A stretch of 64,000 nt of DNA from the NCBI GenBank assembly GCA_944320725.1, contig CALUIM010000004.1, positions 1 through 64,000 on the forward strand, given 5' to 3'. The translations under genes were made by a program, and so were the position numbers. Shown in pieces: positions 6,742-22,604 of this stretch; positions within the stretch are counted from its first letter, which is position 1; each line of letters opens with the position of its first letter. This DNA is from an uncultured Coriobacteriaceae bacterium. GTDB taxonomy: Bacteria; Actinomycetota; Coriobacteriia; Coriobacteriales; Coriobacteriaceae. The notes under the pieces are model-generated. The model searched no databases. It was given only the letters and a program-made list of their open reading frames with translations, and had not been told where the DNA came from.

Positions 6742-6770
6742 GCGGTCCCGATGAGACGCGAGGAGGGCCA

Positions 6771-7023: not shown

Positions 7024-7035
7024 CGGTCGAAACGC

Positions 7036-7071: not shown

Positions 7072-7091
7072 CGAGGGAAAGGACGGAAGGA

Positions 7092-7859
7092 ATGAGGGTC
7101 ATAACGGCAAGCAACTTCAAGGGAGGGGTGGGCAAGACCACCACGGCGGTGAACCTGGCGGTGCTCTGCGCCTCGCGTGGGCTCAGGACGCTGCTGGTCG
7201 ACCTGGACCCGCAGGCGTCGGCGACCGACTACTTCGGCCTCTACGACGCGGCGGGGGAGTCCGGGCGCAACGCGGTCTCCCTGCTCTACGGCGACATGCC
7301 CGCGCAGGAGGCAGCGCACCAGACGGGCATCGAGCGCCTGAGCTGCGTCCCGACGACGCTCGACCTCATCGACCAGAACGAGCTCATGCTGCGCGAGCAG
7401 CGGCTCAGGTTCGCCCTCGACGACGCGGAGGGGGCCTACGACGTCGCCATCCTCGACTGCGCGCCGAGCGCAAAGCAGCTCGCCATGTGCGCCTACGTTG
7501 CGACGAGCGGGCGCGGCACGGTCGTCATCCCGGTCAAGCTCGATTCGACGGTCATGAGGGGGACGGCGTCGGCGGTGGCGGCGGTGCGCGGCGTGGCGAC
7601 GAAGCTGCGGATGCCCCTGCCCGACTGGAGGATCCTGCGCACGTGCGTGCCGGGGCGGATGACGAGGGCGGAGGCGACGGGCGCCGCGGTGCTCGACCGC
7701 TTCTTCCCCGACCGCCAGTACGCGACCGTGATCCACCACTCGGCGAAGGTGATGGAGGGGAGCTGGGAGTGGAGGCCCATCGTGTCGTTCATGCCCGGCA
7801 ACCGCGCGGCGCTCGACTACGAGGAGCTCGGGAGGGAGATGGGGCTGTGGCGGGAGTAG
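7092..7859 (+). CDS. parA: ParA-type partition ATPase
   Basis: 255 residues. Deviant Walker A motif KGGVGKTT at residues 10-17, VDLDPQASAT (Walker A') at about 39, and AILDCAPS (Walker B) near 120. This is a Soj/ParA cytosolic ATPase used for segregation of plasmids and circularised elements. ATG at 7092 is preceded by GGAAGGA. It overlaps parB by 13 bp, a typical parAB operon. Presence on an integrated element implies an extrachromosomal stage that needs stabilising, in line with the initiator-like gene at the left. Confidence 0.92.
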   Translation: MRVITASNFKGGVGKTTTAVNLAVLCASRGLRTLLVDLDPQASATDYFGLYDAAGESGRNAVSLLYGDMPAQEAAHQTGIERLSCVPTTLDLIDQNELMLREQRLRFALDDAEGAYDVAILDCAPSAKQLAMCAYVATSGRGTVVIPVKLDSTVMRGTASAVAAVRGVATKLRMPLPDWRILRTCVPGRMTRAEATGAAVLDRFFPDRQYATVIHHSAKVMEGSWEWRPIVSFMPGNRAALDYEELGREMGLWRE

Positions 7860-8797: not shown

Positions 8798-8804
8798 CGG
8801 CCAC

Positions 8805-8838
8805 CCGGCGCGGGCGCGTAACCATGCGCCCGCGCCGG
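8805..8838. terminator. Hairpin after parB
   Basis: Perfect 13-bp inverted repeat (8805-8817 with 8826-8838) with an 8-nt loop, beginning eight bases after the parB stop. No T-run follows. Confidence 0.6.
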
Positions 8839-8850
8839 TCTTAGCAAGCT

Positions 8851-8902
8851 GCCTATTGCGTATCACGGCGCCCTCCCGGGCGCCGCTCAGGCCGCAATAG
8901 GC
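8851..8902. other. Candidate origin of transfer (oriT)
   Basis: Nested inverted repeats: GCCTATTGCG at 8851-8860 with its exact complement at 8893-8902, enclosing a second stem (8866-8873 with 8878-8885). The site lies between parB and the mobC-relaxase pair, where oriT is expected. The outer arms are AT-richer than their surroundings. The nic position is not identified. Confidence 0.5.
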
Positions 8903-9018
8903 CCCCTCCCGTCCGACGGGGCGCGCGGGAGGGGCGCCACCCCGCGGCCGCCCGGGCGCCGGCCGCCGGTGGCGCCGATGCGGGGGTGGCCCCCGCGCCC
9001 CAGGAAGGGAGGCGGCCC

Positions 9019-9423
9019 ATGCCCTACCGGAACATGGTCAGCCTGAGGCTCGACGACCGCGACCTGGACGCCCTGGAGGCGGCGTCCGAGAGGTCTGGGC
9101 TGTCGCGCTCGGAGCTCCTCCGCTCGCTGCTGCGCGTCCCGCCGGGGGCGGACCGGCAGAGGACCGTCTACGCCGTCGACGGTAGGACGCTCGGGAGGAT
9201 GGCGACCGAGCTGGTCCGCTGGGGCCGCCACTACAACCAGGCGGTCCACGCGCTCAACACCATCGCTCTCCTCGTCCGCAGGGGGAGCCCGCCCAAGCCG
9301 CCGGAGCTCGAGGCGATGCTCGGGCGGGCCCTCTCGGCGCTCGAGGAGGTCGAGGCGGGCAGGCGCGTCCTCGAGGCGGCGCTCACCGAGGTCGCGGACT
9401 CCATCGCCGTGAGGAGGGACTAG
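9019..9423 (+). CDS. mobC: MobC-like relaxosome accessory protein
   Basis: 134 residues, ATG at 9019 behind GGAAGGGAGG. The N-terminus is a ribbon-helix-helix (MVSLRLDDRDLDALEAASE, then SRSELLRSLL). The middle has the WGRHYNQAVHALN motif usual in MobC/MbeC-type proteins (compare G-x-N-L-N-Q), and the rest is helical. Such proteins bind oriT and help the relaxase nick. It is followed after two bases by the relaxase gene and preceded by the oriT candidate. Confidence 0.82.
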   Translation: MPYRNMVSLRLDDRDLDALEAASERSGLSRSELLRSLLRVPPGADRQRTVYAVDGRTLGRMATELVRWGRHYNQAVHALNTIALLVRRGSPPKPPELEAMLGRALSALEEVEAGRRVLEAALTEVADSIAVRRD

Positions 9424-9425
9424 CG

Positions 9426-10634
9426 GTGCCCGTCGTCAAGCCAATCAGCGGCCACACCGGGTGCGGCGGCATCATGCGCTACCTCACCAGGGGCGGGCGC
9501 GCGCTCGCCGTGGACCTCGCGAACCTCTCCTGGTCGCCCGAGCACCCCTGCGGGTTCCGGGACTGGGCGGAGGAGATGGACTTCACGCGAGTCGCCTACG
9601 GCAACCACACGCCGTGGAAGGGGAGGCCCGCGCGGACCTACAAGCACTACGTCCTGAGCCCCGACCCGAGGGACGGCATCTCCCTCGAGGCGCTCCGCGA
9701 CCTGGCGCGCGCGTGGGTCGCCGAGAACTTCGCGGGGTTCCAGGCGGCCGTCGTCTACCATGACGACAACGAGGGCGGCGTCATGCACGCCCACGTCGTG
9801 GTGAACAACACCAACCTCGAGACCGGGGCGCGCCTGCAGGACCCGGCGCCGCGGGAGCTCATGCGCTCCGCCCAGAGGCTTGCCGAGGAGCGCGGCCTGA
9901 GCTTCTTCGCCGACGGGCCCGGAGAGGGGGCCGCCCCGCTCCTCGCGGCGAGGGGGACGCGCGGCAGGGAGCGGGTCCACTTCCGCAGGGCCGAGAGGGA
10001 GCTCGCCGAGAGGGGCGCCTACTCGTGGGTGGCCGACATCAGGGCCCGCGTGACGGTCGCCAGGCGGGTCGCGCGCGACGAGGCCGACTTCGTCGCTGCG
10101 CTCTCCGAGCTCGGCGTGGAGGTCTCCGGCGCCGCGCCCGGAAACGGCGCCGCGGACTGGGTCTACGCGCTCTCGGGAGAGGGCGCGCGCAGGATCAGGG
10201 GAGAGAACCTCGGGACCTCGTTCGGGCGGAGGTCAGTGCTCCAGGAGCTCGCGCTGCGCTCGTCCCCGCGGAGGGCCGACGCGATCCGCGAGATCGCCCG
10301 CAACGCCGTCGCGGTCGACGACCTGGACGACCTGAGGCGGCTGGCCGACGCCCTCGACGCGTTCTCGCGGGAGGCCATCAGGAGCCTCGCCGACTGCGAG
10401 GCGCGCATCGGGGCGCTGGAGGCCGCGGGCGACTTCGGGGCGATGGAGCGCCTCGCGGGCCTGCGCGACTACGCCGAGGCGAAGGGCCTGCTCCCGGAGC
10501 GCGCCGCGACCCGTCGGAGGAGGCCCGCGCCGGACGACGGGAGCCCCCGGACGGGCGCCGCTCGGCGGCGCGGGGAGGATGCCCGGCGCCCCGACGTCGG
10601 GGGCGGAAGGGGAAGGGAAGGAAGGGAGAGGTAG
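9426..10634 (+). CDS. HUH relaxase / mobilization nuclease
   Basis: 402 residues from GTG at 9426, with GAGGAGGGAC upstream. N-terminal relaxase domain: a candidate catalytic Tyr in MRYLTRGGRA (Tyr19), YKHYVLSPDP, and the metal-binding histidines His112, His121 and His123 in MHAHVVVNNTN. This layout fits MOBP-class relaxases. The C-terminal half is helical and lower in complexity, ending in an Arg/Gly-rich tail; there is no helicase or primase domain. It should nick at oriT and lead the strand into a recipient through a type IV system encoded elsewhere. Confidence 0.88.
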   Translation: MPVVKPISGHTGCGGIMRYLTRGGRALAVDLANLSWSPEHPCGFRDWAEEMDFTRVAYGNHTPWKGRPARTYKHYVLSPDPRDGISLEALRDLARAWVAENFAGFQAAVVYHDDNEGGVMHAHVVVNNTNLETGARLQDPAPRELMRSAQRLAEERGLSFFADGPGEGAAPLLAARGTRGRERVHFRRAERELAERGAYSWVADIRARVTVARRVARDEADFVAALSELGVEVSGAAPGNGAADWVYALSGEGARRIRGENLGTSFGRRSVLQELALRSSPRRADAIREIARNAVAVDDLDDLRRLADALDAFSREAIRSLADCEARIGALEAAGDFGAMERLAGLRDYAEAKGLLPERAATRRRRPAPDDGSPRTGAARRRGEDARRPDVGGGRGREGRER

Positions 10635-10636
10635 GC

Positions 10637-11176
10637 ATGAGGGTCGAGATCGACTACGAGGACGGGAGGCTCGGCGTGTTCGACACCGCCAACCTGGTCG
10701 CCGGCCAGCCCTTCGGAGGGGCGTGCGTCGCGGCGGAGCTCGTGCTGCGGCTCGACGCCGCCGAGGGCGAGGGGATATGCCTCGACATACACCACCACGA
10801 CATCTCCGGCTCCGAGGAGGGCGGCGACGTACCGTATGCCGACCGCTGCAGGGGCTACAGGGTGTGCCTCGCCGACGCGGGCGAGCTCGACGGCATCGAG
10901 TGCGTCTCCGTGGACGGCAGGGCGGTAGCCTGGAAGCGCGCCGGACGGTTCGTGGACGGGGCGAGGTTCGAGCGGGCCCAGCGGCTGTGGTACTCCGAGT
11001 CGCCCAACGCGTGCGAGAACTACAGGGCGTGCAGGATCTACGACTACCTGGAGGCGTCCCGCCCCGACCTGCGCGGCGACCCGGAGGCTATCTGCGCGCT
11101 GTTCGGCTACCCGGCAGAGGCGCTCGCCGAGGCGCGGCGGGCCGAGGCCGCCCAGCCCGACGAAGAGGAGGAGTAG
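10637..11176 (+). CDS. Hypothetical protein of the mobilization operon
   Basis: 179 residues, ATG at 10637 two bases after the relaxase stop, with GGGAGAGG upstream. I do not recognise it. The N-terminus looks beta-rich (VEIDYEDGRLGVFDTANLV); a His/Asp cluster (DIHHHDISGSEE) lies at about residues 50-62. A CENYRACRIYDYLEA segment is in the middle, and the end is acidic (DEEEE). No signal peptide or membrane segment. Codon use matches the neighbours. Co-expression with the relaxase suggests a transfer-related or accessory role. Confidence 0.75.
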   Translation: MRVEIDYEDGRLGVFDTANLVAGQPFGGACVAAELVLRLDAAEGEGICLDIHHHDISGSEEGGDVPYADRCRGYRVCLADAGELDGIECVSVDGRAVAWKRAGRFVDGARFERAQRLWYSESPNACENYRACRIYDYLEASRPDLRGDPEAICALFGYPAEALAEARRAEAAQPDEEEE

Positions 11177-11179
11177 GCC

Positions 11180-11263
11180 ATGGGGATCGTCAAGGCGGCC
11201 CTGGCCGCGTGCGTCGCGTTCCTCGCATGGCTGTTCAGGGCGGTGTTCAGGTGGTTCATGTGA
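11180..11263 (+). CDS. 27-residue membrane peptide
   Basis: Short frame MGIVKAALAACVAFLAWLFR followed by a second aromatic stretch and stop. It starts three bases after the previous stop, with GGAGGAG nearby. Nearly the whole peptide is one hydrophobic helix with a basic patch. It could be a hydrophobic type I toxin-like or accessory membrane peptide. Good ribosome site and composition support it; no homologue is known to me. Confidence 0.5.
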   Translation: MGIVKAALAACVAFLAWLFRAVFRWFM

Positions 11264-11278
11264 GGACGGCGTCCGCAG

Positions 11279-11306
11279 TTGTCAGTTTGTCAGTTTGAAC
11301 TACAGT
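11279..11306 (+). promoter_or_regulatory. Candidate promoter of the HTH gene
   Basis: TTGTCA (11279-11284), 16-bp spacer, TACAGT (11301-11306). A second TTGTCA lies at 11287-11292, making an 8-bp direct repeat. The stretch is AT-rich compared with the flanks and precedes the gene at 11344. Confidence 0.45.
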
Positions 11307-11343
11307 ACAACCGATAAGACGGCGCGAAAGAAGGGAGGCCGGC

Positions 11344-11757
11344 ATGGCAGCGACGACGGCACCCGCCGCGACCATCGTGGACAACAGGACGGGCGACGCA
11401 ACCTCGATCGACGCGAGGGCCTTCGGCGCGCTGAAGGCGTTCCTGCGGGCGCTCGGCGCGGCCTACACCGACGAGGGCGAGGCCGACGCCCGGCTCACCA
11501 CGGGGCAGGCGGCGCAGATCGTGGGGACCTCCCCGCGGACGATCGCACGGCTGATAGACTCCGGCAGGCTTAAGGGCATGCGCACGGGAGGTGGGCATCG
11601 CTACGTTATGCTCTCCGACCTCATGGACTTCGACCGCCGGTCCCGGGAGGGGCGCTCCGCCGCCCTCGACGAGATGCGCGACGTCGCTGCCGAGGAGGGC
11701 CTCTACGGCAACGCCGACGCGGTGTCGGAGTACCTGAGGGGCCTCGGGCAGGGCTGA
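11344..11757 (+). CDS. Excisionase-family HTH protein, antitoxin-like
   Basis: 137 residues, ATG at 11344 with AGGGAGGCC upstream. Residues about 50-100 form a MerR/excisionase-type helix-turn-helix: LTTGQAAQIVGTSPRTIARL, then a GGGHRYVMLSDLMDF wing. The tail, RSAALDEMRDVAAEEGLY, resembles actinobacterial antitoxins normally followed by a PIN-domain toxin, but no toxin gene follows here. It may instead regulate excision or the defence operon starting 200 bases on. The DNA-binding fold is clear, the role is not. Confidence 0.75.
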   Translation: MAATTAPAATIVDNRTGDATSIDARAFGALKAFLRALGAAYTDEGEADARLTTGQAAQIVGTSPRTIARLIDSGRLKGMRTGGGHRYVMLSDLMDFDRRSREGRSAALDEMRDVAAEEGLYGNADAVSEYLRGLGQG

Positions 11758-11867
11758 CACGGCACCGCTGGGATAGTATTTGGCGACTGCAGAAAGATCA
11801 TCGGTTTCTGCGCCCATGCATTCGTCGAGCATCGACCTGCAATCCCCGCCCTCTCCTTCCCTGAGCG

Positions 11868-11915
11868 TTGACTTATGCTATTAGAAGCCTATAATCAGAA
11901 TTATCATCTGATAAT
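11868..11915 (+). promoter_or_regulatory. Consensus promoter with palindromic operator for the defence operon
   Basis: TTGACT (11868-11873), 16-bp spacer, TATAAT (11890-11895), then a perfect 7-bp inverted repeat ATTATCA/TGATAAT (11900-11906 with 11909-11915) at the likely transcription start. The region is strikingly AT-rich in this element. The rest of the 11,758-11,953 gap shows no gene. Confidence 0.75.
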
Positions 11916-11953
11916 AGCTTTCATGTAGCATCAATTGGAGGAAAGGGAATCGG

Positions 11954-13174
11954 ATGCTCTGCCAGTTCACGTTCAGCAATTACCGGTCCTACCGTGACGA
12001 GACGACGCTCACGATGCAGGCATCGGCGATGAGGGAGTTCTCACGGTCCCTCCTGCCCGGGGGAGACAGCCAGAGCTTCCTGCCCGTCGCCGCAGTGTAC
12101 GGGCCCAACGCCGGCGGCAAGTCGAACCTCCTCGAGGCTCTCGGCTACGTCTGGTCCGCTGTCGCGCGCCCCATCCTCTCCCTCAAGCGTGGGGCGGAGG
12201 CGCGCGAGGAGCCTTCGCTGCGCCTTTCCCGGTGCGCGCCGTTCGCGTTCGACGGGGAGCACGGCGCCATGCCGACCGAGTTCGAGGTCTACTACCGGGT
12301 CTCGGGCTATGAGTACCGCTACACGCTTTCGGTCAGCGCGTCCGAGATCGTCGGCGAGAGCCTGGCGCGGCGCAAGGTGGGCGCCTCGAGGACCGCGATG
12401 CTCTTCGAGCGTGAGGGGGACGAGGTCTCCCTCGGACCCTCGCTGCGGCGGGCGAACGTATCCACCGGGTTCAACCCCGATATCCCGTACCTCTCGTACC
12501 TTTACATGAACACCGACCTCGAGCCCGTCCGGGACGCGGCGAGCTGGTTCCTCGACTGCGTATTCCTCGACTACAACAGCTTCTACCTGGAGCACCTGCT
12601 GGAGAACATGCTCGACGAGAAGGACTCGCCGGAGATCACCCGGTTCCTCAGGGCCGTCGACGTCCACGTGGACGGGTTCCGCGTCGAGCGCGACGCCGAC
12701 GGGCGCCGCCAGCGCGTGTACGTCAAGCACAAGGTCGGGGGCTCCGAGTACGAGCTGCGCCTCTCCGAGGAGTCCGCCGGCACGCAGAAGCTCATGGGGC
12801 TGGCGCGCGTCGTCATGAGTGCCCTGGAGGAGGGCGGCACCGTGCTCGTGGACGAGCTCGACGCTAAGCTGCACCCCAAGCTGCTGCGCTACGTGATCCT
12901 TCTGTTCAAGGACCCCGAGGCCAATAAAGGCGGCGCCCAGCTGGTGTTCACGAGCCAGGACGTTTCGACCATGCGCAACGACGTGTTCCGCCGCGACGAG
13001 ATCTGGTTCGCGGCGCGCGACGGGGACGAGGCGAGCCGTCTGTGGTCGCTCTCCGACCTGCACGAGCCCAACGGCAACCTCGTGAGCAAGAACGCGGCGT
13101 TCGACAGGCAGTACCTCGCCGGCCGCTACGGCGCCGACCCGTACCTCACCCGCATCGAGGAGTGGGAGCAGTGA
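11954..13174 (+). CDS. AAA family ATPase, RloA-like defence protein
   Basis: 406 residues, ATG at 11954 behind GGAGGAAAGG. N-terminal F-S-N-Y-R-S-Y start of ABC-type/SMC-like ATPases, Walker A GPNAGGKSN at about residue 50, signature LSEESAGTQKL near 277, Walker B VLVDELDAKLHP, and a D-loop/His switch QLVFTSQD. This is the AAA_15/AAA_21 architecture of RloA/AbiLi-type ATPases. The next gene is RloB, overlapping by GTGA, so the pair forms an RloAB (AbiL-like) phage-defence module. The ATPase probably senses or gates the RloB effector. Confidence 0.88.
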   Translation: MLCQFTFSNYRSYRDETTLTMQASAMREFSRSLLPGGDSQSFLPVAAVYGPNAGGKSNLLEALGYVWSAVARPILSLKRGAEAREEPSLRLSRCAPFAFDGEHGAMPTEFEVYYRVSGYEYRYTLSVSASEIVGESLARRKVGASRTAMLFEREGDEVSLGPSLRRANVSTGFNPDIPYLSYLYMNTDLEPVRDAASWFLDCVFLDYNSFYLEHLLENMLDEKDSPEITRFLRAVDVHVDGFRVERDADGRRQRVYVKHKVGGSEYELRLSEESAGTQKLMGLARVVMSALEEGGTVLVDELDAKLHPKLLRYVILLFKDPEANKGGAQLVFTSQDVSTMRNDVFRRDEIWFAARDGDEASRLWSLSDLHEPNGNLVSKNAAFDRQYLAGRYGADPYLTRIEEWEQ

Positions 13175-13848
13175 CGGCCGCCAAAAGGCGCGGGTGGCGC
13201 AGCGGCAGGCGCGCCGTGGCCACCCGCCCCGTCCAGCTGACGCGCCACCTGATAGTCTGCGAGGGCACGGAGACCGAGCCGCGCTACTTCGAGGGGATGA
13301 AGGCGGCGCTTGGCGCGGCTAACGGGAGGAAGGTCGCGGTCGTCGTGCGCGGCAGCGGCAGGCACACCCTCGACCTGTTCGAGTGCGCTGAGGACCTCTG
13401 CCGGTACGCTCCCGAGGCGTTCGACCACGTGTGGCTCGTGTTCGACAAGGACGACTTCCCCGCGGAAGAGTTCGACCTCGTTGAGCGCAGGTGCGCCTCC
13501 GCGTCGGGTCCTTCCCGCACGTTCCACGCGCTCTGGTCGAACCCCTGCTTCGAGATCTGGCCCCTGCTCCACCTGCGCTACACCACGGCCCCGATGGACG
13601 CCGCGGGGTGCCAGCGGGCGCTGGCCGACGCCCTCAGGCGCGAATGCGGCGTCGACTACCGCAAGAACATGGAGGGGCTGTTCGGCGCCGTCGATCCCAG
13701 GCGCGACGACGCCGTCTCCAACGCCGCGAGGCTCCTCAGGCACCACGAGGCCATCGGCAACGTCAGGCCCTCCGCCATGAACCCGGCGACCCGGGTCGCC
13801 GACATCCTCGATGAGTTTGGCCCGTACCTTGAGAGGGGTGGCGATTGA
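13171..13848 (+). CDS. RloB family protein (AbiLii-like effector)
   Basis: 225 residues from a GTG overlapping the ATPase stop. Signature of RloB: a LIVCEGTETEPRYFEGM segment near the N-terminus, a VWLVFDKDDFP motif at about residue 90 and LWSNPCFEIWPLLHL at about 120. The acidic residues in these motifs suggest a TOPRIM-like metal site. In known RloAB/AbiL systems it is the presumed nuclease effector. Its last bases overlap the next start (TTGA), linking it directly to the CBASS genes, which I have not seen described. Confidence 0.85.
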   Translation: MTAAKRRGWRSGRRAVATRPVQLTRHLIVCEGTETEPRYFEGMKAALGAANGRKVAVVVRGSGRHTLDLFECAEDLCRYAPEAFDHVWLVFDKDDFPAEEFDLVERRCASASGPSRTFHALWSNPCFEIWPLLHLRYTTAPMDAAGCQRALADALRRECGVDYRKNMEGLFGAVDPRRDDAVSNAARLLRHHEAIGNVRPSAMNPATRVADILDEFGPYLERGGD

Positions 13849-14966
13849 GTAGACGAAAGAGTCCGACGCCCGCGACCATCGACCTTCTGTGGGCTCTGTC
13901 CGCAGGCCATTGCGAACTCTGCGGGTCCGACGTGACCAACGCCTTGGCCTCAGGAAAACGGGGGAAGTACGGCCAGGTTGCACATATCGAGGCCTACTCC
14001 CCAGGCGGCGCGCGGTACAACGCCAGTCAGTCCGAGAAGGAGCGCAACTCGCTAGACAACCTCATGCTGCTCTGCCCCACCTGCCACGCGCTCGTCGACA
14101 ACAACGCGCCCGACTTCGGAGTCGAGTTCCTCAGGGACCGGAAACGGTTCTTCGAGGCATCGGTGAAGGCGGCGGTGAGCGCAATCGGGCCAACGCGTTC
14201 CGACGTGCTCACCCTGGGCATGCGGATAGGGGGCAAAGACTTCCAGATTGCGGAGAAGGACTGGAAGAGGGCGATGGTCGACGCGGGGGTTAACGTTGGC
14301 GACACGCAATCATTTGACGCCGCCCGCGATGTTCCAGAAGGCTGCGGTCCAGAAACGCTTTGCTCGCTCAGGCGGCGCATCGAAAAGTACCGCGAGCTGG
14401 TTCACGGGGACGGATCGAGGCGGACAAGCGTGTTCGCGATTGCCCCGCAGCCTGTCCTGATAGGGCTTGGGGCCATGCTGGCCGATGACGGGAACGTCGA
14501 TGTATACCAGAAGCGCCGCGATACCGAGGGTTGGTCCTGGGCAAGCGACGGCACGCCAAACAGCTTTTCTTTCGAAATGTTGTCCTCGGGAGAATCCGAG
14601 GATTGCGCGATTGTAGTGTCCGTCTCGGGGCCAATCGGCCGCGAGACCTATTCCGGGGCAGTGCCTAGTTCGGTCGAAACGGTGTACGAGCTGCGAGCTT
14701 CGAGGACCGGGCCGACGGCGATTTTTCTGAGGGACGACTGGTACGAGTTCAAGCGCGCCGCGATCGCAGCTCTCTTTAAGATCCATGAGGGACATCCCGG
14801 GGTGCGAAGACTCCACGTGCTTCCGGCGATGCCCGTCTCGGCTTGTGTGGCGTTCGGCATGGCGTGGAACGAGCGGCTCATTCCGGAGCTTGTGATTTAC
14901 GAGAAACGCGACAGCGTCTTCTCGAGGGTGTTGACGATTGGGGGTCCGAATGGATATGGAGAATAA
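13845..14966 (+). CDS. HNH endonuclease-SAVED effector (Cap5-like)
   Basis: 373 residues from a TTG overlapping the RloB stop. Residues about 20-90 form an HNH nuclease: CELCG, AHIEAYSPGG, NLMLLCPTCHALVD. From about 190 to the end the pattern fits a SAVED domain (VFAIAPQPVLIGLGAML, CAIVVSVSGPI, HVLPAMPVSACVAFGMAWN). HNH-SAVED proteins are CBASS effectors: a cyclic nucleotide bound by SAVED drives assembly and DNA degradation. The cyclase follows with a 17-bp overlap. G+C is lower than in the preceding element genes, a sign of separate origin. Confidence 0.9.
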   Translation: MSRRKSPTPATIDLLWALSAGHCELCGSDVTNALASGKRGKYGQVAHIEAYSPGGARYNASQSEKERNSLDNLMLLCPTCHALVDNNAPDFGVEFLRDRKRFFEASVKAAVSAIGPTRSDVLTLGMRIGGKDFQIAEKDWKRAMVDAGVNVGDTQSFDAARDVPEGCGPETLCSLRRRIEKYRELVHGDGSRRTSVFAIAPQPVLIGLGAMLADDGNVDVYQKRRDTEGWSWASDGTPNSFSFEMLSSGESEDCAIVVSVSGPIGRETYSGAVPSSVETVYELRASRTGPTAIFLRDDWYEFKRAAIAALFKIHEGHPGVRRLHVLPAMPVSACVAFGMAWNERLIPELVIYEKRDSVFSRVLTIGGPNGYGE

Positions 14967-16080
14967 CGAGGGTCTGAACTGCATCTTCGACGAGCTCGCG
15001 GAGTCGCTGAACATATCAGAGACGATGCGCGACAAAGCGGAGAGGGCCTACACCGCGCTAGGAGAGTGGATCGAGGATAACCCGGAGGGGGAGGCTGTCG
15101 AGGCCTACACCCAGGGTTCCTTTGCCCTGGGGACCGTCGTTCGACCGCCGAGCGGGGAGGACCTGGACTATGACATCGATCTGGTGTGCCAGCTGCCGGG
15201 CATGGTCGAAAATGCCGCCAAGGAGATTAAGCTGTTCGTCGGCAAGAGGATCAGAGAGCATGGCACCTATGCGAAGAAGCTCTGCCCGGAGGGCAAGCGA
15301 TGCTGGACGCTCGACTACGGCGTCTTCCACGTCGACGTGCTCCCGTGCGCCGATGATTCCCAGAAAGGAGGGACGGCGGTCCGTCTCACCCACAAGGATC
15401 CTGGAACCGGCGAGTATTCCGACCGGTACAGCAACCCCAAAGGATATGCGAAATGGTTCGAAGAGCGAATGGGCGACAGCCTTACCGAGGCAAAACGTCG
15501 ATATTCCGGGAGGGTGTACTGCTCCGTCGAGGACGTCCCCACCTTTGCCGTGAGAACACCGCTCCAGAAGGCTATCCAGATACTGAAGCACCATCGCAAC
15601 CTGATGTTCGAGGGAGCGGACAACGCCCCCATCTCGATAATCATCTCGACTCTGGCGGCGTGGGCATATGGCGGAGAGCGGGGGACGTACGACGCCCTCG
15701 TCGGAATCCTTGAAAGGATGGACGCCCACATCTCCGGAGGCCCTGGGAGGTACCGAATCGCAAACCCGGTCGACGAGAAGGAGAACTTCGCCGAGAAGTG
15801 GAACGAGAGCCCCGAGAAGGCGGCCGCGTTCTTTTCGTGGCTCGATAGGGCGAGAAAGGACTTCCGTGGGCTATCTGGCGTTCGAGGACTCGATGCCATC
15901 ACCCGTTCCCTCGAGTACTCGTGTGGAAAGGCCGTAGCCTCCCGCGCCATGAACCAGTACGGAGATCGCTTGCGCGAAGCAAGGGGATCGTCCTCCCTGT
16001 TCGCCTCTTCTGCGGGCCTAACATATGCCGCCTCGCCCTCTGCTCGCGCCGTTCCGCGACATGAGTTCTATGGCGCCTAG
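14950..16080 (+). CDS. CBASS CD-NTase (cyclic oligonucleotide synthase)
   Basis: 376 residues, ATG at 14950 inside the effector gene. Nucleotidyltransferase core: QGSFALGT (Gly56-Ser57), DLDYDIDLV with the metal-binding pair Asp75/Asp77, and a third acidic residue in FHVDVLPC. Further helices (TPLQKAIQILKHHRN) follow the usual CD-NTase pattern. On phage infection it would make a cyclic nucleotide that activates the HNH-SAVED effector. The product cannot be predicted safely from sequence. A second ATG at 14956 is possible. Its end overlaps the E2-like gene, which should modify or regulate it. Confidence 0.9.
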   Translation: MDMENNEGLNCIFDELAESLNISETMRDKAERAYTALGEWIEDNPEGEAVEAYTQGSFALGTVVRPPSGEDLDYDIDLVCQLPGMVENAAKEIKLFVGKRIREHGTYAKKLCPEGKRCWTLDYGVFHVDVLPCADDSQKGGTAVRLTHKDPGTGEYSDRYSNPKGYAKWFEERMGDSLTEAKRRYSGRVYCSVEDVPTFAVRTPLQKAIQILKHHRNLMFEGADNAPISIIISTLAAWAYGGERGTYDALVGILERMDAHISGGPGRYRIANPVDEKENFAEKWNESPEKAAAFFSWLDRARKDFRGLSGVRGLDAITRSLEYSCGKAVASRAMNQYGDRLREARGSSSLFASSAGLTYAASPSARAVPRHEFYGA

Positions 16081-16513
16081 GATCCCCTCGTTCCTCAGGC
16101 GGCGTAGGAGGTTGTCATCGGCTATCCAGCTCGTGGGCCTGAGAAGGCTGTTTCCCGGGTCTGCAGGATCAGTCGACAAGGGGAGGCTCAAATGGTCCTT
16201 CGACCGCTTCCAAGGATCCCCGATTTCCAGGGTATACAAGATAGAAATCGAGGGCAGGCCCGGGGAGAAACCATCTGTCTGGTTGTCCGGCGGCGCTATC
16301 AACGCAGGCAACGCCGTGGATGCGCCCCATAAGTACGGTATTGACGACGATGGTCCCAGAATCAAGGTTTGCCTAGACAGGTTCGACTGGAAGTCCGACC
16401 AGCTGTACGCCGATACGTACGTACCATGGGCGATGGAATGGATAGTGCACTTCGAGATATGGTGCGCCACAGGGGAATGGAACGGCGGGGGGATTCATCC
16501 GCCGCCACGATAA
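16061..16513 (+). CDS. E2-like ubiquitin-conjugating-fold protein of CBASS
   Basis: 150 residues with this start. The order of motifs matches E2-only CBASS proteins: a helix ending LRRLFP, VYKIEIEG, a PHKYG motif (His90), RIKVCLDR with candidate catalytic Cys104, then a WAMEWIVHFEIWCATGEWNGGG end. No E1 or JAB-protease gene follows, so this is the short type II (E2-only) form, in which E2 acts on the C-terminus of the cyclase. No start has a good ribosome site; 16025 (162 residues) and 16070 are alternatives. It is coupled to the cyclase stop at 16080. Confidence 0.82.
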   Translation: MSSMAPRIPSFLRRRRRLSSAIQLVGLRRLFPGSAGSVDKGRLKWSFDRFQGSPISRVYKIEIEGRPGEKPSVWLSGGAINAGNAVDAPHKYGIDDDGPRIKVCLDRFDWKSDQLYADTYVPWAMEWIVHFEIWCATGEWNGGGIHPPPR

Positions 16514-16527
16514 CAGCGGCCGTTGCG

Positions 16528-17589
16528 CTAGCGCTCGTGCTCGCCGACGCGTGACGCATGCGTCCGCTCGCCTATTGAGGCGAGCCGGGCCGTGCCTACG
16601 CGCTCTGCTAGACGCCTGGAGCCGCGCCCCGGCTCCCTTTCGATTTCCTTGGCACGCTCCCGCTCTCCCGGCTCGCGCGCCTTCGAGGCCTCCTTCTCGA
16701 TAGTATCGATTATCCCGTGCGAGGCGCTGCGTATCTCGTCGAGCGACGCCCTGAGCTCGCCAACGTCCCTCCCGTCGCTCCACGACGCGATGTAGCCGAA
16801 GCTGTAGTCGCTCGTGTCGAGCCCCAGCCAGCTGGAGACGACGTAGGCGACGCTCTCCGCCTGCACCTCCCGCGTGCCGCGGTCGGGGAGGGAGGCCCTC
16901 TCGCTGCTCGGCCCGTCGTCGTGCATGACGCTGTGGGCGAGCTCGTGGACGGCGGTCTTGAGCGTCTGGGCCTGCGACATCCCCTTCTGTACGGCGATGC
17001 GCTTGGGCTCGGCGCGGGAGAAGTACCCCTTCGCGCCTCCCTCGATGTCCTCGAAGACGATGGGGTACCTGCTCGCCTTGCGGATGGCCCCCATGACGGC
17101 CTCGTACCCCTCGACGTCGCCCCTCAGCTCGTCGATGCCCAGGGAGGGCAGCTCCTTGCCCTCGGTCTGGCTCACGTCGAAGACCGTCCCCATCCGGAAG
17201 CCGGCGAGCCTCTTCTCGGGGGCCTTCTCCTCGCCCGGGTCGTCCTCCTCCCTCGGGGAGTCCCCGGCGGGCCTCGCCCTCACGACGACGGGGCAGAGGA
17301 TCCTGATGCCGCGCTCGCCCTTGCGGACGTGCCTTCCGAACTTGTCCTGCCAGGCGCGGTACCCCGCGACCAGGGTCGCCCCGGGCTTCTGCATGGCTAT
17401 GAGCAGGCAGTTGTTGAGGCTGTAGTCGTGGAAGCGCGACATCACGGCGAGGTACTCCGCGTACCTCCCCGAGGAGAACACGTCCCTCACGCCCTTCTCC
17501 AGGCGCTCGAGGGTCTGCTGCAGCTCCTCGCCCCGCCTGTCAGCCGCCTCGGAGCCCCTCTTGTCTCTCTTTCCCGCCATCGCCGCCAT
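16528..17589 (-). CDS. ArdC-like antirestriction protein with metallopeptidase domain
   Basis: 353 residues from 17589 (17580 is an alternative ATG). The N-terminal ArdC ssDNA-binding domain is recognisable: YSLNNCLLIAMQKPGATLV, then GYRAWQDKFGRHVRKGERGI and ILCPVV. An acidic insert follows, then a zinc metallopeptidase motif HELAHSVMHDD with a downstream Glu in QAESVAYVVSSWLGLD. The C-terminus is a highly charged helix. Such proteins protect incoming single-stranded DNA during conjugation from restriction. It is convergent with the defence operon, with 14 bp between the two stops. Confidence 0.87.
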   Translation of the reverse strand: MAAMAGKRDKRGSEAADRRGEELQQTLERLEKGVRDVFSSGRYAEYLAVMSRFHDYSLNNCLLIAMQKPGATLVAGYRAWQDKFGRHVRKGERGIRILCPVVVRARPAGDSPREEDDPGEEKAPEKRLAGFRMGTVFDVSQTEGKELPSLGIDELRGDVEGYEAVMGAIRKASRYPIVFEDIEGGAKGYFSRAEPKRIAVQKGMSQAQTLKTAVHELAHSVMHDDGPSSERASLPDRGTREVQAESVAYVVSSWLGLDTSDYSFGYIASWSDGRDVGELRASLDEIRSASHGIIDTIEKEASKAREPGERERAKEIEREPGRGSRRLAERVGTARLASIGERTHASRVGEHER

Positions 17590-17713
17590 CCCCGATAGAT
17601 CGTGGTCTTTCTCCCACGGGGTCGGGAGGGCGCGTGGGATTTCGACGGCCCTGCGAGGGGCTGCCGCCCCTCGCGCTCCCCGGCAGGGGGAGCCCCCTGC
17701 ACCCTGCTCCCGC

Positions 17714-17841
17714 CCTCCGCGCCGGGCGGGCGCCCCCGGCTCAGTCGCCGCCGGGGCTCGTGGCGCGCGGGACGCAGCCGTAAAGGGCGCTCTCGCGGTT
17801 TCCCCACAAACCCGCCCGACCTGCGCGTTGGTGGGGAAACC
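17714..17841. repeat. Dispersed noncoding repeat, copy B, with long inverted repeat
   Basis: Shares three ordered blocks with 6531-6646. In this copy the CCCCAC block is one arm of a perfect 11-bp inverted repeat (17797-17807 with 17831-17841, loop 23 nt). Copy A keeps the left arm only. It lies in the 374-base gap between the ArdC gene and the gene at 17964, where I see no gene. Confidence 0.65.
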
Positions 17842-17906
17842 GGACCGGGGCCTCCGCGAACCGGCCCTTGACTGCCGCGCTCCTCGCGCGCCTCCCGGCA
17901 GGCATG

Positions 17907-17933
17907 CCGGAAGCAAGCGGCGCTTGCTTCCGG
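17907..17933. other. Perfect 12-bp hairpin upstream of a small gene
   Basis: 12-bp inverted repeat (17907-17918 with 17922-17933) around a 3-nt loop, 30 bases before the start at 17964. Position and shape parallel the hairpins at 6685-6741 downstream of repeat copy A. It may stop readthrough or structure the leader. Confidence 0.5.
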
Positions 17934-17963
17934 CGGCGCCGAATCGAGGGATAGGAGAAGCCC

Positions 17964-18341
17964 ATGGGAACGTACCTGTACGGCGACGAGTGCCGATTCA
18001 GCCTGGTCGTGAACGAGGACATGCTCGACGCATTCGCCGATGCGGCGATGAGGGAGTGGGGCTATGAGTGGGGGCGGGGCGACTTCGCCGATGCGCTGCC
18101 CGGATCGAGTACCGTGCGCCGCGTCGGGCCACGGGAACGGTTCTGGCTCGGCGACGCGTCCTGGGGATACGGCGACGCCCTGGGAGCCCTCCTCGAGCCC
18201 TGCGAGCCGGGCAGCTTCGTCGAGGTGATGACGCTCGACGATGGCCTGATATTCGAGCGATTCGAGCGCACCGAGTCCGGAATCGAGCGCTCCGTCGAGC
18301 GCGGAATCAACCCGTTCTGCAAAGGCGGGGCCGCCTGCTAG
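17964..18341 (+). CDS. Hypothetical acidic protein
   Basis: 125 residues, ATG at 17964 with GGATAGGAG upstream. Not recognised. It is acidic and aromatic-rich: VVNEDMLDAFADAAMREWGYEW near the start, then RERFWLGDASWGYGDALGALL and EPGSFVEVMTLDDGLIFERF. No membrane segment. Small acidic proteins on mobile elements are often DNA mimics or antirestriction factors; its place next to the ArdC gene allows that reading, but nothing proves it. Confidence 0.65.
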   Translation: MGTYLYGDECRFSLVVNEDMLDAFADAAMREWGYEWGRGDFADALPGSSTVRRVGPRERFWLGDASWGYGDALGALLEPCEPGSFVEVMTLDDGLIFERFERTESGIERSVERGINPFCKGGAAC

Positions 18342-18442
18342 TAGCCGCGGGTGTTAAGAGGCCTCGGCGCAAGATCACGCACGAAGCTGAAGGGGAAGAT
18401 CTTCGCGCCCGGATAGGGAAGCGGCCCGGGCCGAGAACGACC

Positions 18443-18470
18443 GAGGGGGCGGCGCAATGGCCGCCCCCTC
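18443..18470. terminator. Strong hairpin between small convergent genes
   Basis: Perfect 11-bp inverted repeat (18443-18453 with 18460-18470) with a 6-nt loop. It lies after the rightward gene ending at 18341 and after the leftward small gene ending at 18495, so it can serve both. Confidence 0.65.
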
Positions 18471-18494
18471 GTCTACTTGATGACAGCGTTGGCG

Positions 18495-18605
18495 TTAGTC
18501 GTCGCCGTCTTCTCCGTCAGGCTCCTCGAAGCGATCCTCCTCGGGGATTGGCCCCGCGTCGCTCGTGCAGACGCGCCCGTACTCGTCTCTCTCTGGCTCT
18601 GGCAT
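18495..18605 (-). CDS. 36-residue acidic small protein
   Basis: Reads MPEPERDEYGRVCTSDAGPI and continues with an acidic end (EEDRFEEPDGEDGDD). It starts at 18605 behind an AAGGAGG ribosome site five bases away and ends just before a strong hairpin. It lies downstream of the AbiE pair on the same strand. The ribosome site and the non-random acidic composition support translation; function unknown. Confidence 0.5.
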   Translation of the reverse strand: MPEPERDEYGRVCTSDAGPIPEEDRFEEPDGEDGDD

Positions 18606-18667
18606 ATTTGCCTCCTTCGACGTGGCGGCATTGCCGCCGCCTCTCCATGCCGCTTTCTCTTGCGGCC

Positions 18668-18742
18668 TCACTTACAGGGTCGCGGATCCGGCGTCATTTC
18701 GACGTCGATCTTCCTGTTGCGCCTGCCGGCGAGATCATCCAT
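18668..18742 (-). CDS. Possible 24-residue peptide overlapping the abiEii stop
   Basis: A short frame (MDDLAGRRNRKIDVEMTPDP and four more residues) whose ATG overlaps the abiEii stop (ATGGATGA). It has no ribosome site of its own and would depend on coupling. Weak; listed because the overlap type recurs in this element. The rest of the 18,606-18,734 gap shows nothing else. Confidence 0.22.
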   Translation of the reverse strand: MDDLAGRRNRKIDVEMTPDPRPCK

Positions 18743-19664
18743 TCATGCGCCTCAGGTTCCGTAGCTTCCAGAGCGCAGCCGGGCTCCGCTCGGCGGCTGC
18801 GGCCATCCTCTCGTCGGGGAAGAGCAGACCGGGGCGGTAGTCTCCTGCGGCGAGGCGGTCGAGATACTCGCGCTCAGCGTCGGTGCGCGGCAGGACGTGC
18901 GCCTCTATGAACCTTTCGGCGGTCTCCATGAGTCCCTGGAGGCTCGGGCGCTCGTCCGCCGCCCGCAGCATGGGAAGGAGCTGGCTCTCGAGCTCCCCCT
19001 GCCTGTCGGCGAACCTCTTCGTCCGGCCCTCGAAGGGCTGCGGGAACCGCGCCGAGATCGAGGCGTAGTAGAGCATCGCCCGGTGGGCGAGGGCCTCGTA
19101 GTCTGCGTCGGCGCTCGCGAGGACGCCCTCGAGGTTGCAGACATCGTAGAGGTCGCGCACCTTGACCCGGTCGAAGAAGGCCTTGACCTTGCCGCCGGCG
19201 AGCTCCGCGTCGCAGAAGGTCACGACATTTGCGTCCGGCCTGACGGCGCAGGGCCTGGGCTCGGGCGGGACGAGCGGGGAGCGGTTGAGGAACACGCAGT
19301 CGACCTTCACGTGGTCCGGGCCCCAGTCGCCCCGGTAGCGCAGCATGAACGTCCTGCCCGCGTGCTCCGACCTCGTGGGCGGCACGTCGTAGCCGAGGTA
19401 GCGGGCCACCTCCTCGATGCCGCGCTCGACGCGGGGCCGCTCTGCGAGCGTCTCGTCGCGGTCCACGGCGCCCACGTAGGAGACGTCGATGTCGACCGAC
19501 AGCCTCGGCGCGTCGAGCATGAACAGGTTGATCGCCGTGCCGCCGTGCATCGCGAGCCTGCCCTCGAGGTCGGGGTGGCGGCCCATCTCCTCCATCAGGT
19601 CGAGCAGGCGCTCCACCTTGTCGACCGTCCTCGGGGAGAACCCCTCCATGCTCACCGCGCCCAC
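18735..19664 (-). CDS. abiEii: AbiEii-like nucleotidyltransferase toxin
   Basis: 309 residues from a GTG at 19664, chosen because GGAGGAGG lies seven bases upstream; ATG at 19649 is the alternative. The MHGGTAINLF and RLSVDIDVSY motifs (G-G-T plus D-x-D-x-S/Y) mark the AbiEii/AbiGii toxin family. VKVDCVFLNRSPL and KVKAFFDRVKVRDLYDVCNL complete the pattern. In studied family members the toxin transfers nucleotides to tRNA and stops growth. The start overlaps the end of abiEi, the usual antitoxin-first order, so this is a type IV AbiE system. Confidence 0.9.
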   Translation of the reverse strand: MGAVSMEGFSPRTVDKVERLLDLMEEMGRHPDLEGRLAMHGGTAINLFMLDAPRLSVDIDVSYVGAVDRDETLAERPRVERGIEEVARYLGYDVPPTRSEHAGRTFMLRYRGDWGPDHVKVDCVFLNRSPLVPPEPRPCAVRPDANVVTFCDAELAGGKVKAFFDRVKVRDLYDVCNLEGVLASADADYEALAHRAMLYYASISARFPQPFEGRTKRFADRQGELESQLLPMLRAADERPSLQGLMETAERFIEAHVLPRTDAEREYLDRLAAGDYRPGLLFPDERMAAAAERSPAALWKLRNLRRMNG

Positions 19665-20410
19665 GATGCGACCTCCTCCTCCGATTCCGGCAGCCTCATG
19701 TTCCACTCCCTCGACCAGCCCCTGGTCGCGGTAGCCCTCTTGTTGAGCTTGGACACCGTCCCCGCGCTCGCTTCGCGCAGGCGCTCGATCACGCCCTCGG
19801 GCACGCGCCACGCCTCGGACCTCGCCTCCAGCAGCCAGCCCGCGCGCGCAGCCATGGACGCGCTGTCGGCGAGCGCAAGGTCGGCCGCTTTCTCGGCGTC
19901 GAGGTAGGGCATCGCCGAGAGGGACCGCACCGCCTCCTCGATGCCGCCCGCCCACTCCGGGTGCTTCAGGCAGTCGAAGAGCGTCTGCTCCCTCGTCGTG
20001 ACGAGAACCGACCCGAACGCCCTGCCGCGCAGCCTCTGGCTCAGGACGTCGGCGCCTGCGGGATGAGGGACGTAGCGCATGCTCCGGAACGAGAACGGCG
20101 AGCGCGCCGCGTCGGTGCGGAAGCGGCACTCGAAGCCGACGTTATGTGCGACGCCGTGCGCCTCGAGGGCGCTGTGGTAGGAGAGGATCGCCCCTGCGTC
20201 GAGAGCCGCCACGACCTCGTAGGGATCGACCCCCGCCCCCTCGAATCTGCCCGAGTTGGAGGCGTAGAGCCCCCTGCGCACGCGCTCGACCGAGCCCGAG
20301 GCGGCCGCCTCCTTCAGCTGCTGCTTCGCGGCGGCGGGCGAGTCCGACGCCGCCAGCAGGTCCTCGACGGTGAACACGTGGTGGCTGCGTATGTACTCGC
20401 TGAACTTCAT
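19652..20410 (-). CDS. abiEi: AbiEi-like antitoxin and autorepressor
   Basis: 252 residues, ATG at 20410. N-terminal winged helix (FTVEDLLAASDSPAAAKQQL, then SVERVRRGLYASN), middle ALDAGAILSYHSALEAHGVAH, and a VLVTTREQTLFDCLKHPEWAGG segment typical of AbiEi/TIGR02147-like antitoxins. The frame stays open to 20890, but the residues beyond Met1 are Arg-rich and the operator lies there, so the shorter start is preferred. AbiEi proteins repress their own promoter by binding inverted repeats; a large one lies exactly at the start. Confidence 0.9.
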   Translation of the reverse strand: MKFSEYIRSHHVFTVEDLLAASDSPAAAKQQLKEAAASGSVERVRRGLYASNSGRFEGAGVDPYEVVAALDAGAILSYHSALEAHGVAHNVGFECRFRTDAARSPFSFRSMRYVPHPAGADVLSQRLRGRAFGSVLVTTREQTLFDCLKHPEWAGGIEEAVRSLSAMPYLDAEKAADLALADSASMAARAGWLLEARSEAWRVPEGVIERLREASAGTVSKLNKRATATRGWSREWNMRLPESEEEVASWAR

Positions 20411-20473
20411 ACTTACGGATTTAAGCACAAAAGGTAGTAAATAGCTACCTTTAGCATCTGAATCCGTAAGTAT
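20409..20473 (-). promoter_or_regulatory. Nested palindromic operator of abiE
   Basis: Outer perfect 13-bp inverted repeat (20409-20421 with 20461-20473) and inner perfect 8-bp repeat AAAGGTAG/CTACCTTT (20430-20437 with 20445-20452). The region is AT-rich and reaches the abiEi start codon. It fits AbiEi autorepression. Confidence 0.75.
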
Positions 20474-20899
20474 TCGAGAACCTGCGATAGGTCGCACGGT
20501 TCTCCCGTTGCCGCTGCGCGTGCGAGGGGATTGTCTTTCGGCCAATTTCGGCCATCTTCGGGCGACTACGGCCGTTTCGGCTCCTCCGAACGGGTCCTTT
20601 CGATGGAGGGCAGCGCGGGAACCACCGGCCATGTGCTCGAGCATGCGGCGGACCCGGAAGTCCTTCCCGGTCACCGCGGGGCGCGCCGTCGCGATCTCCC
20701 TCGCTCCGCTTGCGATGCATCCCTTCCCTTCGAAATGATGAAAATAGTGGACAATATTTTCATCGTATGCATCGACGGGGGAGAGGGCTCGGGCAAATCT
20801 GCGGTTTCGGCGAATCGCGTGTGGTCGACGCGTTATTCGCGCGCCGGCGCCGTTCGCCTCGCGTCCCGCCACGCTTTTCATCTTTTTCATCGACGCCTC
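20474..20899. other. Gap without a convincing gene; two unexplained repeats
   Basis: No supported gene. It holds two copies of TTTCGGCCA ten bases apart (20536-20544, 20546-20554). It also holds a perfect 10-bp inverted repeat GATGAAAATA/TATTTTCATC (20737-20746 with 20755-20764) in a local AT-rich pocket. The latter looks like a repressor operator, but no gene start lies next to it. Confidence 0.5.
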
Positions 20900-21295
20900 C
20901 TAGTCGTCGAAGGGGATGCGCAGCTCGAAGGCGACCTGCCCGAGGAACAGGTGAACCAGCGCGTTCGGGGTGATGCACATCTCCCTGCAGTAGCTTCTCA
21001 TCTCCCTCTTGAACTCCGGCGTCATCTTCACGACGATCCCCGTCACGACGCCGGTGCGTGGCGACGAGGACTTGTCTATGCCGTACCTCTCGGCGACGCA
21101 GTCCGCCATGCCCGCCCCCGCGAAGACCGGGTCGCGCGTCACCTCGAACGGGATCCTGTGCTCGAGAATGCCGAGCGTGACCATCCTCCTGATCGCGCCG
21201 GAAAGCGTCATCCCCTTAGCCTCGAGGACCGCCATCGCGCGCCTCTTGATACCGGAATCGACCTCGAGGCTGATGTTCGCCGTCTTTGCAGTCAT
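20900..21295 (-). CDS. Tandem RelB/DinJ-like antitoxin-domain protein
   Basis: 131 residues, ATG at 21295 with GGAGAGG upstream. Residues 1-52 read like a RelB/DinJ ribbon-helix-helix (ANISLEVDSGIKRRAMAVLE, then GMTLSGAIRRMVTLGI, ending RIPFEV). Residues about 82-131 repeat the same plan (VVKMTPEFKREMRSYCREM, then CITPNALVHLFLGQVAF, ending RIPFDD). The two halves could act as a covalent dimer. No RelE/YafQ-type toxin is adjacent, so it is an orphan antitoxin or a plain repressor. Confidence 0.72.
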   Translation of the reverse strand: MTAKTANISLEVDSGIKRRAMAVLEAKGMTLSGAIRRMVTLGILEHRIPFEVTRDPVFAGAGMADCVAERYGIDKSSSPRTGVVTGIVVKMTPEFKREMRSYCREMCITPNALVHLFLGQVAFELRIPFDD

Positions 21296-21550
21296 CGCCA
21301 CCTCTCCTTTCTCAACTTGGACGTCTCCTCGGATACATGGTCGGGAAAGCACATCCGAATTCGGGGGACTTCGCTTCTTCGTGAAGAAAGACAAGGACGA
21401 AGTTCAGCTGCGCACTTCCTTCCTCTAAGAACGTCCGCCTTTTCCGAGGGCGCCCGTTTCTGTCGCGGCGGCTCCTTCATGCCCAACATCCTCTCAGCGC
21501 GTCGAGCAACGCTCATCCCGGGGCTTCTTACCCTTCCGATGTGTCGGGCG

Positions 21551-21593
21551 AATCAATTCCCATTGCGGTCGAGTAACCGCTAACAAGTTGATT
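21551..21593. other. Dyad-symmetric site at the comEC junction, candidate att site
   Basis: Two inverted repeats share almost the same centre (about 21,572): AATCAA 21551-21556 with TTGATT 21588-21593, and GCGGT 21565-21569 with ACCGC 21576-21580. The site covers 43 bp, the size usual for serine-recombinase attachment sites, and sits where the comEC frame resumes. The crossover point is not defined. Confidence 0.4.
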
Positions 21594-22604
21594 GATTCTG
21601 CCCGCCCCGAAGCGATCGATGTGCTTTCGCAGCTGTGTTTGTTTACGGTCGAGGTACTCGCGAACGTACCGGCGGCTTCGATAGCCGTAGATGGCTCAAG
21701 CTTGCAGCTGCCGCTCATGCTTGCTGCGGGAATGGCTGCGGTGGTGGTTTACCGCGTGTGGCGCGCGCCGCCCCCAAGGGTGATCGCTGCGGCGGTATGC
21801 GTGGCCGCCGTGCTTTGCTGCGCGCATGTGGTCCGTTGGACGCACTTCGCTCCTACCTCAATTACCGTGCTCGATGTCGGTCAGGCCGATGCGATACTCG
21901 TGAGAAGTGGCGCTACGTGTGTGCTCGTTGACGCGGGCGTCGATGATGCTGCGGCGCGAGCGCTTGCCCGCAACAACGTGTTCAGGCTCGATGCGGTGGT
22001 CGTGACGCATTGGGACCGCGATCATTGGGGCGGCCTTCCGAGCATTTGCGAAACGATTACGGTCGATACGCTCATCGTTGCCGAGGGTGCCGCCGACGCG
22101 ATGCCAGAAGAGGTGCGGGCGCTCGATATCGCGCAAACACAGGAGATCGCGTATGACGATATGCTTGCTGTGGGTGGGATTGAGCTTCGTGCGATATGGC
22201 CGCGCGAAGTGGTGGCGGGCACTGAGAACAGCGAGTCGCTTGTGTTGGCAGCACACTGCGCCGAGGATACGGGCTCATTCGATATGTTGCTCACCGGGGA
22301 TGCCGAGGCACCTGAGGCTGCCCTGTTTGCCGAGGACGTGGGAAAGGTGGACGTTTTGAAGCTCGGCCACCATGGCTCTGCTGTCTCAGTTGACGAGGAG
22401 ATGCTGAGCGTGCTCGATCCTGCGGTCGGCATCGCGAGCGCAGGGGAGGGCAATGCCTATGGTCATCCCGATCCCGCGTGCGAGGAGGCGGTTCGTGCAT
22501 CGGGTGCCTATTTCCTGTGCACCATCGTCTGTGGCGACATCACGGTCGCGCCTGCGCGCGGAGGCGTTGAGGTGTCGACACAGCATGGTCAGACGGTAGA
22601 ATAG
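21588..22604 (+). pseudogene. comEC: comEC 3' fragment (DNA-uptake channel, metallo-beta-lactamase domain)
   Basis: 338 residues remain. First come the last hydrophobic segments (VLSQLCLFTVEVLANVPAAS, then LPLMLAAGMAAVVVYRVW and VIAAAVCVAAVLCCAHVV). Then follows the ComEC C-terminal metallo-beta-lactamase domain: LDVGQADAIL, THWDRDHWGG, LLTGDAE, LKLGHHGS. Intact ComEC proteins are much longer (roughly 700-800 residues) with an N-terminal OB-fold and a membrane competence domain. Those parts are missing here and presumably lie left of the element. The frame is open back to 21,429 without a start better than TTG at 21588. Precise excision would be expected to restore the gene. Confidence 0.88.

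Follow-up and report, generated by a model that had tools for sequence, protein, structure and literature searches.

The window, that is, the whole 64,000-nucleotide stretch of DNA analysed here, is contig C4 of a source genome assembled as 2.07 Mb in 20 contigs. A frame at 21588-22604 matched metallo-beta-lactamase (Lactamase_B) domains in a profile search, and it also matched ComEC in the seven genus relatives that were compared over their whole frame. The first-pass annotation had placed at this locus the right edge of a mobile element, at which comEC resumes with its metallo-beta-lactamase end alone. Both the domain matches and the ComEC alignments confirmed that resumption, but the position given for the edge (21429) was ~186 bp too early. 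Window 21429-21614 is element sequence and not comEC, the edge lies at 21615-21617, and the first base of the comEC 3' part is 21617 (+), from where it runs through 22604 with the metallo-beta-lactamase end.

The 5' half of comEC, for which a search had been proposed, turned up elsewhere in the source genome, on the minus strand of contig C8: a frame of 572 aa lies at 34813-36144, of which 34818-36144 is comEC sequence, and a comEA-like frame, assigned by sequence motif and not by profile, lies directly upstream. Both halves of the gene exist, with an element of ~56 kb between them, which supports the view that comEC is split by mobile DNA. Against an intact ComEC frame in a relative (genome G005), residues 34-476 are covered by the upstream part and residues 475-804 by the downstream part, each at ~70% identity. 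When the two flanks were joined at the dinucleotide AT that they share, the product was a stop-free ComEC of 771 aa with 543 residues (70%) identical to the G005 protein and zero internal gaps, while a join moved by 3 or 6 bp scored more poorly. The ends of the element thus fit the earlier suggestion that precise excision would restore the frame. The cut separates the membrane-channel part of the protein from its metallo-beta-lactamase part, and what is generally known of ComEC predicts that DNA uptake would be lost. Each of the 67 family genomes searched carries exactly one Competence-domain gene. The shortest frame is that of the source genome, at 572 aa (665-1024 aa in the others), and the split is absent from the other 66 genomes, whose unsplit comEC genes provide the empty sites in relatives that had been called for. 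The features of the locus are as follows, with coordinates in the window unless C8 is named.

1..127: end of the IS-like insertion at the C4/C8 break; the target duplication CGCGTGT starts at 128
128..21614: right arm of the element, delimited by contiguity in stretches L035/L036 and by complete relatives of 54.7 and 56.5 kb in G067/G068
1212..2843, +: large serine recombinase A (Resolvase, Recombinase and Zn ribbon domains)
3276..4943, +: large serine recombinase B (Resolvase and Recombinase domains)
4928..6472, +: large serine recombinase C (Resolvase and Recombinase domains in frame 4097-6472, with the match at 4928-6460)
7487..8797, +: ParB-like protein (ParB_N, E=1.9e-5, just under the curated cut-off)
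8986..9423, +: ribbon-helix-helix / NikA-like mobilization protein (RHH_1 above cut-off, NikA-like below)
9426..10634, +: relaxase of MobA/VirD2 type (PF03432, E=1.6e-12)
11954..13848, +: AbiL-type pair, AAA ATPase AbiLi and RloB-like AbiLii (profile matches)
13845..16080, +: CBASS, HNH-SAVED effector and CD-NTase (SAVED1--SAVED_HNH, 1.6e-77; oligonucleotide cyclase, 9e-113)
16528..17916, -: ArdC-like antirestriction protein (ArdcN and Peptidase_M78)
18735..20129, -: AbiEii-type nucleotidyltransferase (profile match; the called frame start is probably too early)
20900..21394, -: RelB-like ribbon-helix-helix protein adjoining attR (RelB matches)
21615..21616, +: attR crossover dinucleotide AT (best-scoring gap-free ComEC join)
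21617..22604, +: comEC 3' part, in frame after the crossover site (Lactamase_B matches; gap-free join with the C8 half)
C8:34817-34818: attL, the matching AT and partner of the attR AT at comEC
C8:1-34816: left arm of the element, joined to the right arm through the IS-like insertion

Recombinases A, B and C are adjacent on the same strand and form a tandem triplet, which sits ~15-20 kb inside the right end of the element and not at the end itself. The left arm on C8 contributes VirD4 (CD1115 family) and VirB4 (CD1110 family), each scoring over the curated cut-off, together with PrgI, TrbL-like and NlpC/P60 proteins, a sortase and a surface protein of 1311 aa that bears T-Q ester repeats. It also holds a 16.4-kb glycan cluster of glycosyltransferases, a flippase and nucleotide-sugar enzymes, whose first gene, adjoining attL, is an intact priming glycosyltransferase (PF02397). 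The G+C content is 69-71% in the element backbone, 58.5% in this cassette and 59.4% in the chromosomal flank. A site-specific integration module is thus present in the three large serine recombinases, with attL and attR defined in four insertions of the family, and the transfer genes include a relaxase, the coupling protein VirD4 and a VirB4-type ATPase. Judged by this gene content, the ~56 kb between the comEC halves is an integrative and conjugative element (ICE), which would be capable of excision and transfer. A search of 126 kb against Rfam gave zero matches. The 1311-aa surface protein (L003:10261-14196) combines SpaA and T-Q ester (VaFE) repeats with an NlpC/P60 domain and adjoins the sortase in the conjugation module. 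A conserved protein of 546-601 aa (L003:16409-18136; L030:179-1819) occurs in all family elements with backbone, the source copy having no Pfam match, and beside it lies a protein of 328-358 aa with a weakly sigma-factor-like C-terminus.

In Olsenella uli An733 and an Atopobiaceae MAG (G067 and G068; stretches L035/L036), the final 9 kb of the C8 arm and window 128-11176 form one unbroken stretch, at 95-99% identity. The C8 and C4 ends each have ~126 bp of IS-like sequence, with the 7-bp CGCGTGT as a direct repeat on either side. This 7-bp target is present once in the two relatives, and the insertion breaks up an element frame whose G067 counterpart is longer (440 aa). The IS-like insertion with its 7-bp target duplication accounts both for the contig break and for the absence of any direct overlap between the C8 and C4 contig ends. 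The insertion (window 1-134, C8:1-133) has terminal TGTT and repeated TGAGCAG motifs and an IS21-like look by its ends; no transposase was found in its assembled stretch. C8 and C4 do flank one insertion. If the comEC halves had instead come apart through misassembly, or through a rearrangement between two element copies, then their location on separate contigs would be explained, and the source genome does contain two left ends that share 108 bp at 93% identity. We regard such an artefact or inversion as scarcely credible, since the arms are contiguous in two other genomes, the break is an IS-like insertion with a target duplication, and the comEC halves tile without a gap.

We then asked where else elements of this family reside. 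The left end of the element (~100-185 bp, 90-96% identical) was located once in comEC and five times in priming glycosyltransferase genes, namely on contig C19 of the source genome and in G009, G028, G067 and G068. In those five genes the insertion point is a conserved (I/L)DE(L/I)PQ (DELPQ-type) motif. The left ends in G009 and G028 came from a family-wide search and lie in the same gene at the same motif; partial glycosyltransferase matches at contig ends in G011 and G018 were left out of the count of insertions. The priming glycosyltransferase gene is therefore the site of five of the six known left ends, and comEC of one. Over its first ~100 bp (C8:34711-34818 and its counterparts on C19 and in G009, G028, G067 and G068), the left end stays 93-96% identical. 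The left end of the comEC element also holds a CCGGGCGAC...GTCGCCCGG inverted repeat, for which a recombinase-binding arm and an RNA signal are both candidates.

In the hosts G067 and G068, the 5' and 3' glycosyltransferase halves stand on either side of a complete element, 54.7 kb long in G067 and 56.5 kb in G068; Atopobiaceae are the nearest named element hosts of the source genome. Their element backbone has 93-95% DNA identity to that of the comEC element, which suggests recent spread, and their recombinase A copies are 99% identical to the one in the window. The G067 and G068 elements may share common descent from one insertion. In G009 and G028, neither recombinase A nor a 3' glycosyltransferase half was detected, and the element backbone was not seen in the 20 kb examined; the left end and the cassette are present. 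Across the insertions with both ends defined, the attL and attR dinucleotides are identical (2 bp) in three of four pairs, the G068 pair being CT at attL and TT at attR, which leaves 1 bp in common, or 3 bp (TGG) under another alignment. No meaningful terminal repeats of at least 8 bp were found between the two ends of the element, which is consistent with the 2-bp overlap of a serine recombinase; the triplet would supply the acting enzyme.

The C19 site belongs to a second element of the same family within the source genome, spanning C13:1-5650 (L030) and C19:56098-56224 (L016). It splits a priming glycosyltransferase gene, with profile positions 1-88 on C19 and 88-178 on C13 (a cut at 88 of 179), and the flanks rejoin in frame to give RKHSIDELPQLL at AT, the same crossover dinucleotide as in comEC. 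A DNA search found no second copy of the right end in the source genome; this element was located through the split glycosyltransferase. At its right end lie a Pycsar pair (PycC cyclase with PycTM) and homologues of three backbone proteins, namely the 575-aa, the sigma-like and the RelB-like one, and no recombinase or conjugation genes were seen in it. Like the elements in G009 and G028, it may be a derivative mobilised in trans, or there may be gaps. PF02397 matches in the source genome number three, two of which are the halves of the split host gene and the third the copy on the comEC element, so that the sole intact priming glycosyltransferase in the assembly is element cargo. The genes shared by the two elements of the source genome have only ~55% protein identity despite the conserved left end. 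The RelB-like protein beside attR of the comEC element has 57% aa identity to a copy at C13:4853-5263, which adjoins attR of the second element. Single or paired RelB-like copies occupy this place in the other elements, and in the G068 element a run of several related RelB-like ribbon-helix-helix genes (58422-61536; L055-L058) adjoins attR. These genes possibly serve in excision control or are solitary antitoxins.

We scored comEC against a weight matrix built from the glycosyltransferase sites only. Over 136 kb of the source genome, the comEC right half-site ranked 5th of 272,282 positions, and two of the four positions that outranked it are glycosyltransferases; the comEC left half-site showed no similarity to the glycosyltransferase target by the same matrix. 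Such right-side resemblance is what a secondary site would be expected to show. With five of the six left ends in the glycosyltransferase gene, comEC is most likely a secondary site of the element and ComEC loss a by-product.

An element adapted to competence genes, which would block its own curing by transformation or excise to turn comEC back on, had been the reading offered at first, and the clean split with a frame restorable by excision is what such an element would leave. There are also precedents, in that AbaR and CBASS-bearing elements insert into comM of Acinetobacter (PMC11472951) and transposable elements disrupt comEC of Piscirickettsia (PMC12955456). Those cases resemble the present one in that mobile DNA, some of it with CBASS, disrupts a transformation gene, but there the competence gene is a recurrent site, whereas here comEC is the exception among six insertions. 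The other five left ends all lie in the priming glycosyltransferase gene, the split occurs in no other of the 67 family genomes, and both hosts of the near-identical element, G067 and G068, keep an intact comEC (832 and 835 aa). We therefore do not retain adaptation to competence genes or an on/off switch, and judge it very unlikely. On the secondary-site reading, comEC would be a case of DNA uptake lost to an element aimed at another gene, a caution against taking each competence-gene insertion for an adaptation. A less demanding version, that an off-target landing in comEC was afterwards kept by selection because the loss shields the element, or because the species makes no use of transformation, is a possibility to which we give some weight while still doubting it. 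The half-site ranking and the intact comEC in G067 and G068 support an off-target landing, and loss of comEC would be neutral or useful if competence were unused. Against retention by selection, the insertion was seen in one genome only, and the presence of comEC throughout the family suggests that the gene is maintained.

At the left end the geometry of the insertions is constant. In each of the five complete copies, the interrupted host frame reads on for exactly 81 codons, and its stop abuts the next ATG (TAAATG or TAGATG), which is the start of the new intact priming glycosyltransferase. From this geometry in the main, we infer that the new gene may be expressed by read-through or coupling from the host promoter. 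The probability that the leader is free of stops by chance is ~0.07-0.14. A conserved leader peptide was considered and rejected, because substitutions are spread evenly over the three codon positions. The gene split in G067 has NusG-like genes ahead of it (by Pfam), as do those in G068 and G009 (by sequence only).

Behind the leader lie cassettes of 16.4 kb in the comEC element, 16.3 kb in G067 and 13.2 kb in G068, each of which opens with an intact PF02397 enzyme and has a G+C content of 58-61%. The three have almost no nucleotide similarity outside a portion of the glycosyltransferase and some brief stretches, and have thus been swapped within a closely similar backbone. Insertion into the glycosyltransferase gene together with an intact replacement and glycan genes was found in G009, G028, G067 and G068. 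Of the genes in the comEC-element cassette, three have 70-83% identity to the host cluster displaced in G068, suggesting that cassettes and chromosomal loci trade sequence. If the glycan cluster were simply host sequence picked up by chance beside the insertion, and not coat-switching cargo, then this likeness would be expected, as would a cassette G+C of 58.5%, near the 59.4% of the flank and far from the 70% of the backbone. At comEC, though, the cassette lies inside the element and is bounded by attL, and the left end, leader and new glycosyltransferase follow one another in the same order in five hosts. Likeness to host clusters fits with cassettes recombining into the element, and we consider a chance pick-up improbable.

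Taken together, we think it probable that the element is an ICE that normally targets the priming glycosyltransferase gene and replaces the surface glycan, and that the hit in comEC was a by-product. By this mechanism, an ICE of ~56 kb with a tandem serine recombinase triplet would have entered comEC by site-specific recombination at the 2-bp AT. Its usual target is the gene for the priming (polyprenyl-phosphate) glycosyltransferase, the starter of surface-polysaccharide synthesis, and landing there would destroy the host priming enzyme. The element's own priming glycosyltransferase and glycan cluster would then come directly behind the host promoter, with the truncated host frame continuing through the 81-codon leader to a stop at the ATG of the new enzyme. 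The predicted outcome is that the surface glycan of the cell is replaced and the old cluster pushed ~55 kb downstream. In the source genome the element entered comEC, whose site resembles the glycosyltransferase target on its right side. With more reserve, we favour the broader proposal of a conjugative family whose attachment site is the most conserved priming glycosyltransferase motif. Such elements would disable glycan initiation by the host, bring in an initiating enzyme of their own with an exchangeable cassette, and switch the coat in one step, through the host promoter and open leader, in a manner reversible by excision. If this is true, coat and defence would be replaced in combination, the coat often governing phage adsorption and conjugation, with CBASS, AbiL, AbiE and ArdC also aboard.

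The closest known systems by organisation are streptococcal ICEs with serine integrase triplets, which insert within the coding genes mutT, traG and hsdM and have 2-8 bp repeats and reported secondary sites; their conjugation modules belong to the Tn1549/Tn5252 superfamily (Ambroset et al. 2016, PMC4701971). The present element is likened to them in its three tandem large serine recombinases and its insertion into a coding gene; unlike them, it targets the priming glycosyltransferase, bears cargo that replaces the destroyed function and has an Atopobiaceae host. With the Clostridioides difficile CTn / Tn1549-type module it shares the VirB4 CD1110 and VirD4 CD1115 families, and it differs in host class, target gene and glycan/defence cargo. 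We found no description of an ICE in a priming glycosyltransferase gene in the literature (open-licence papers). What is new relative to the known triplet ICEs is the target, the cargo replacing what the insertion destroys, and the swapped cassettes. Integrated elements that alter surface polysaccharide include SPI-7 (the Vi capsule island) and serotype-converting phages, which integrate at tRNA or other sites and bring additional genes, whereas the insertion described here disrupts the host priming enzyme and sets a replacement in the same operon position. When bacteria exchange surface polysaccharides, homologous recombination at the capsule locus is the usual explanation; if our interpretation is true, a dedicated mobile vehicle would be aimed at the conserved motif of the initiating enzyme, disabling it and supplying a new one. 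Two more recombinase triplets, 29-40% identical, were observed at G048:C30:11255-17016 and G018:C11:84550-89344.
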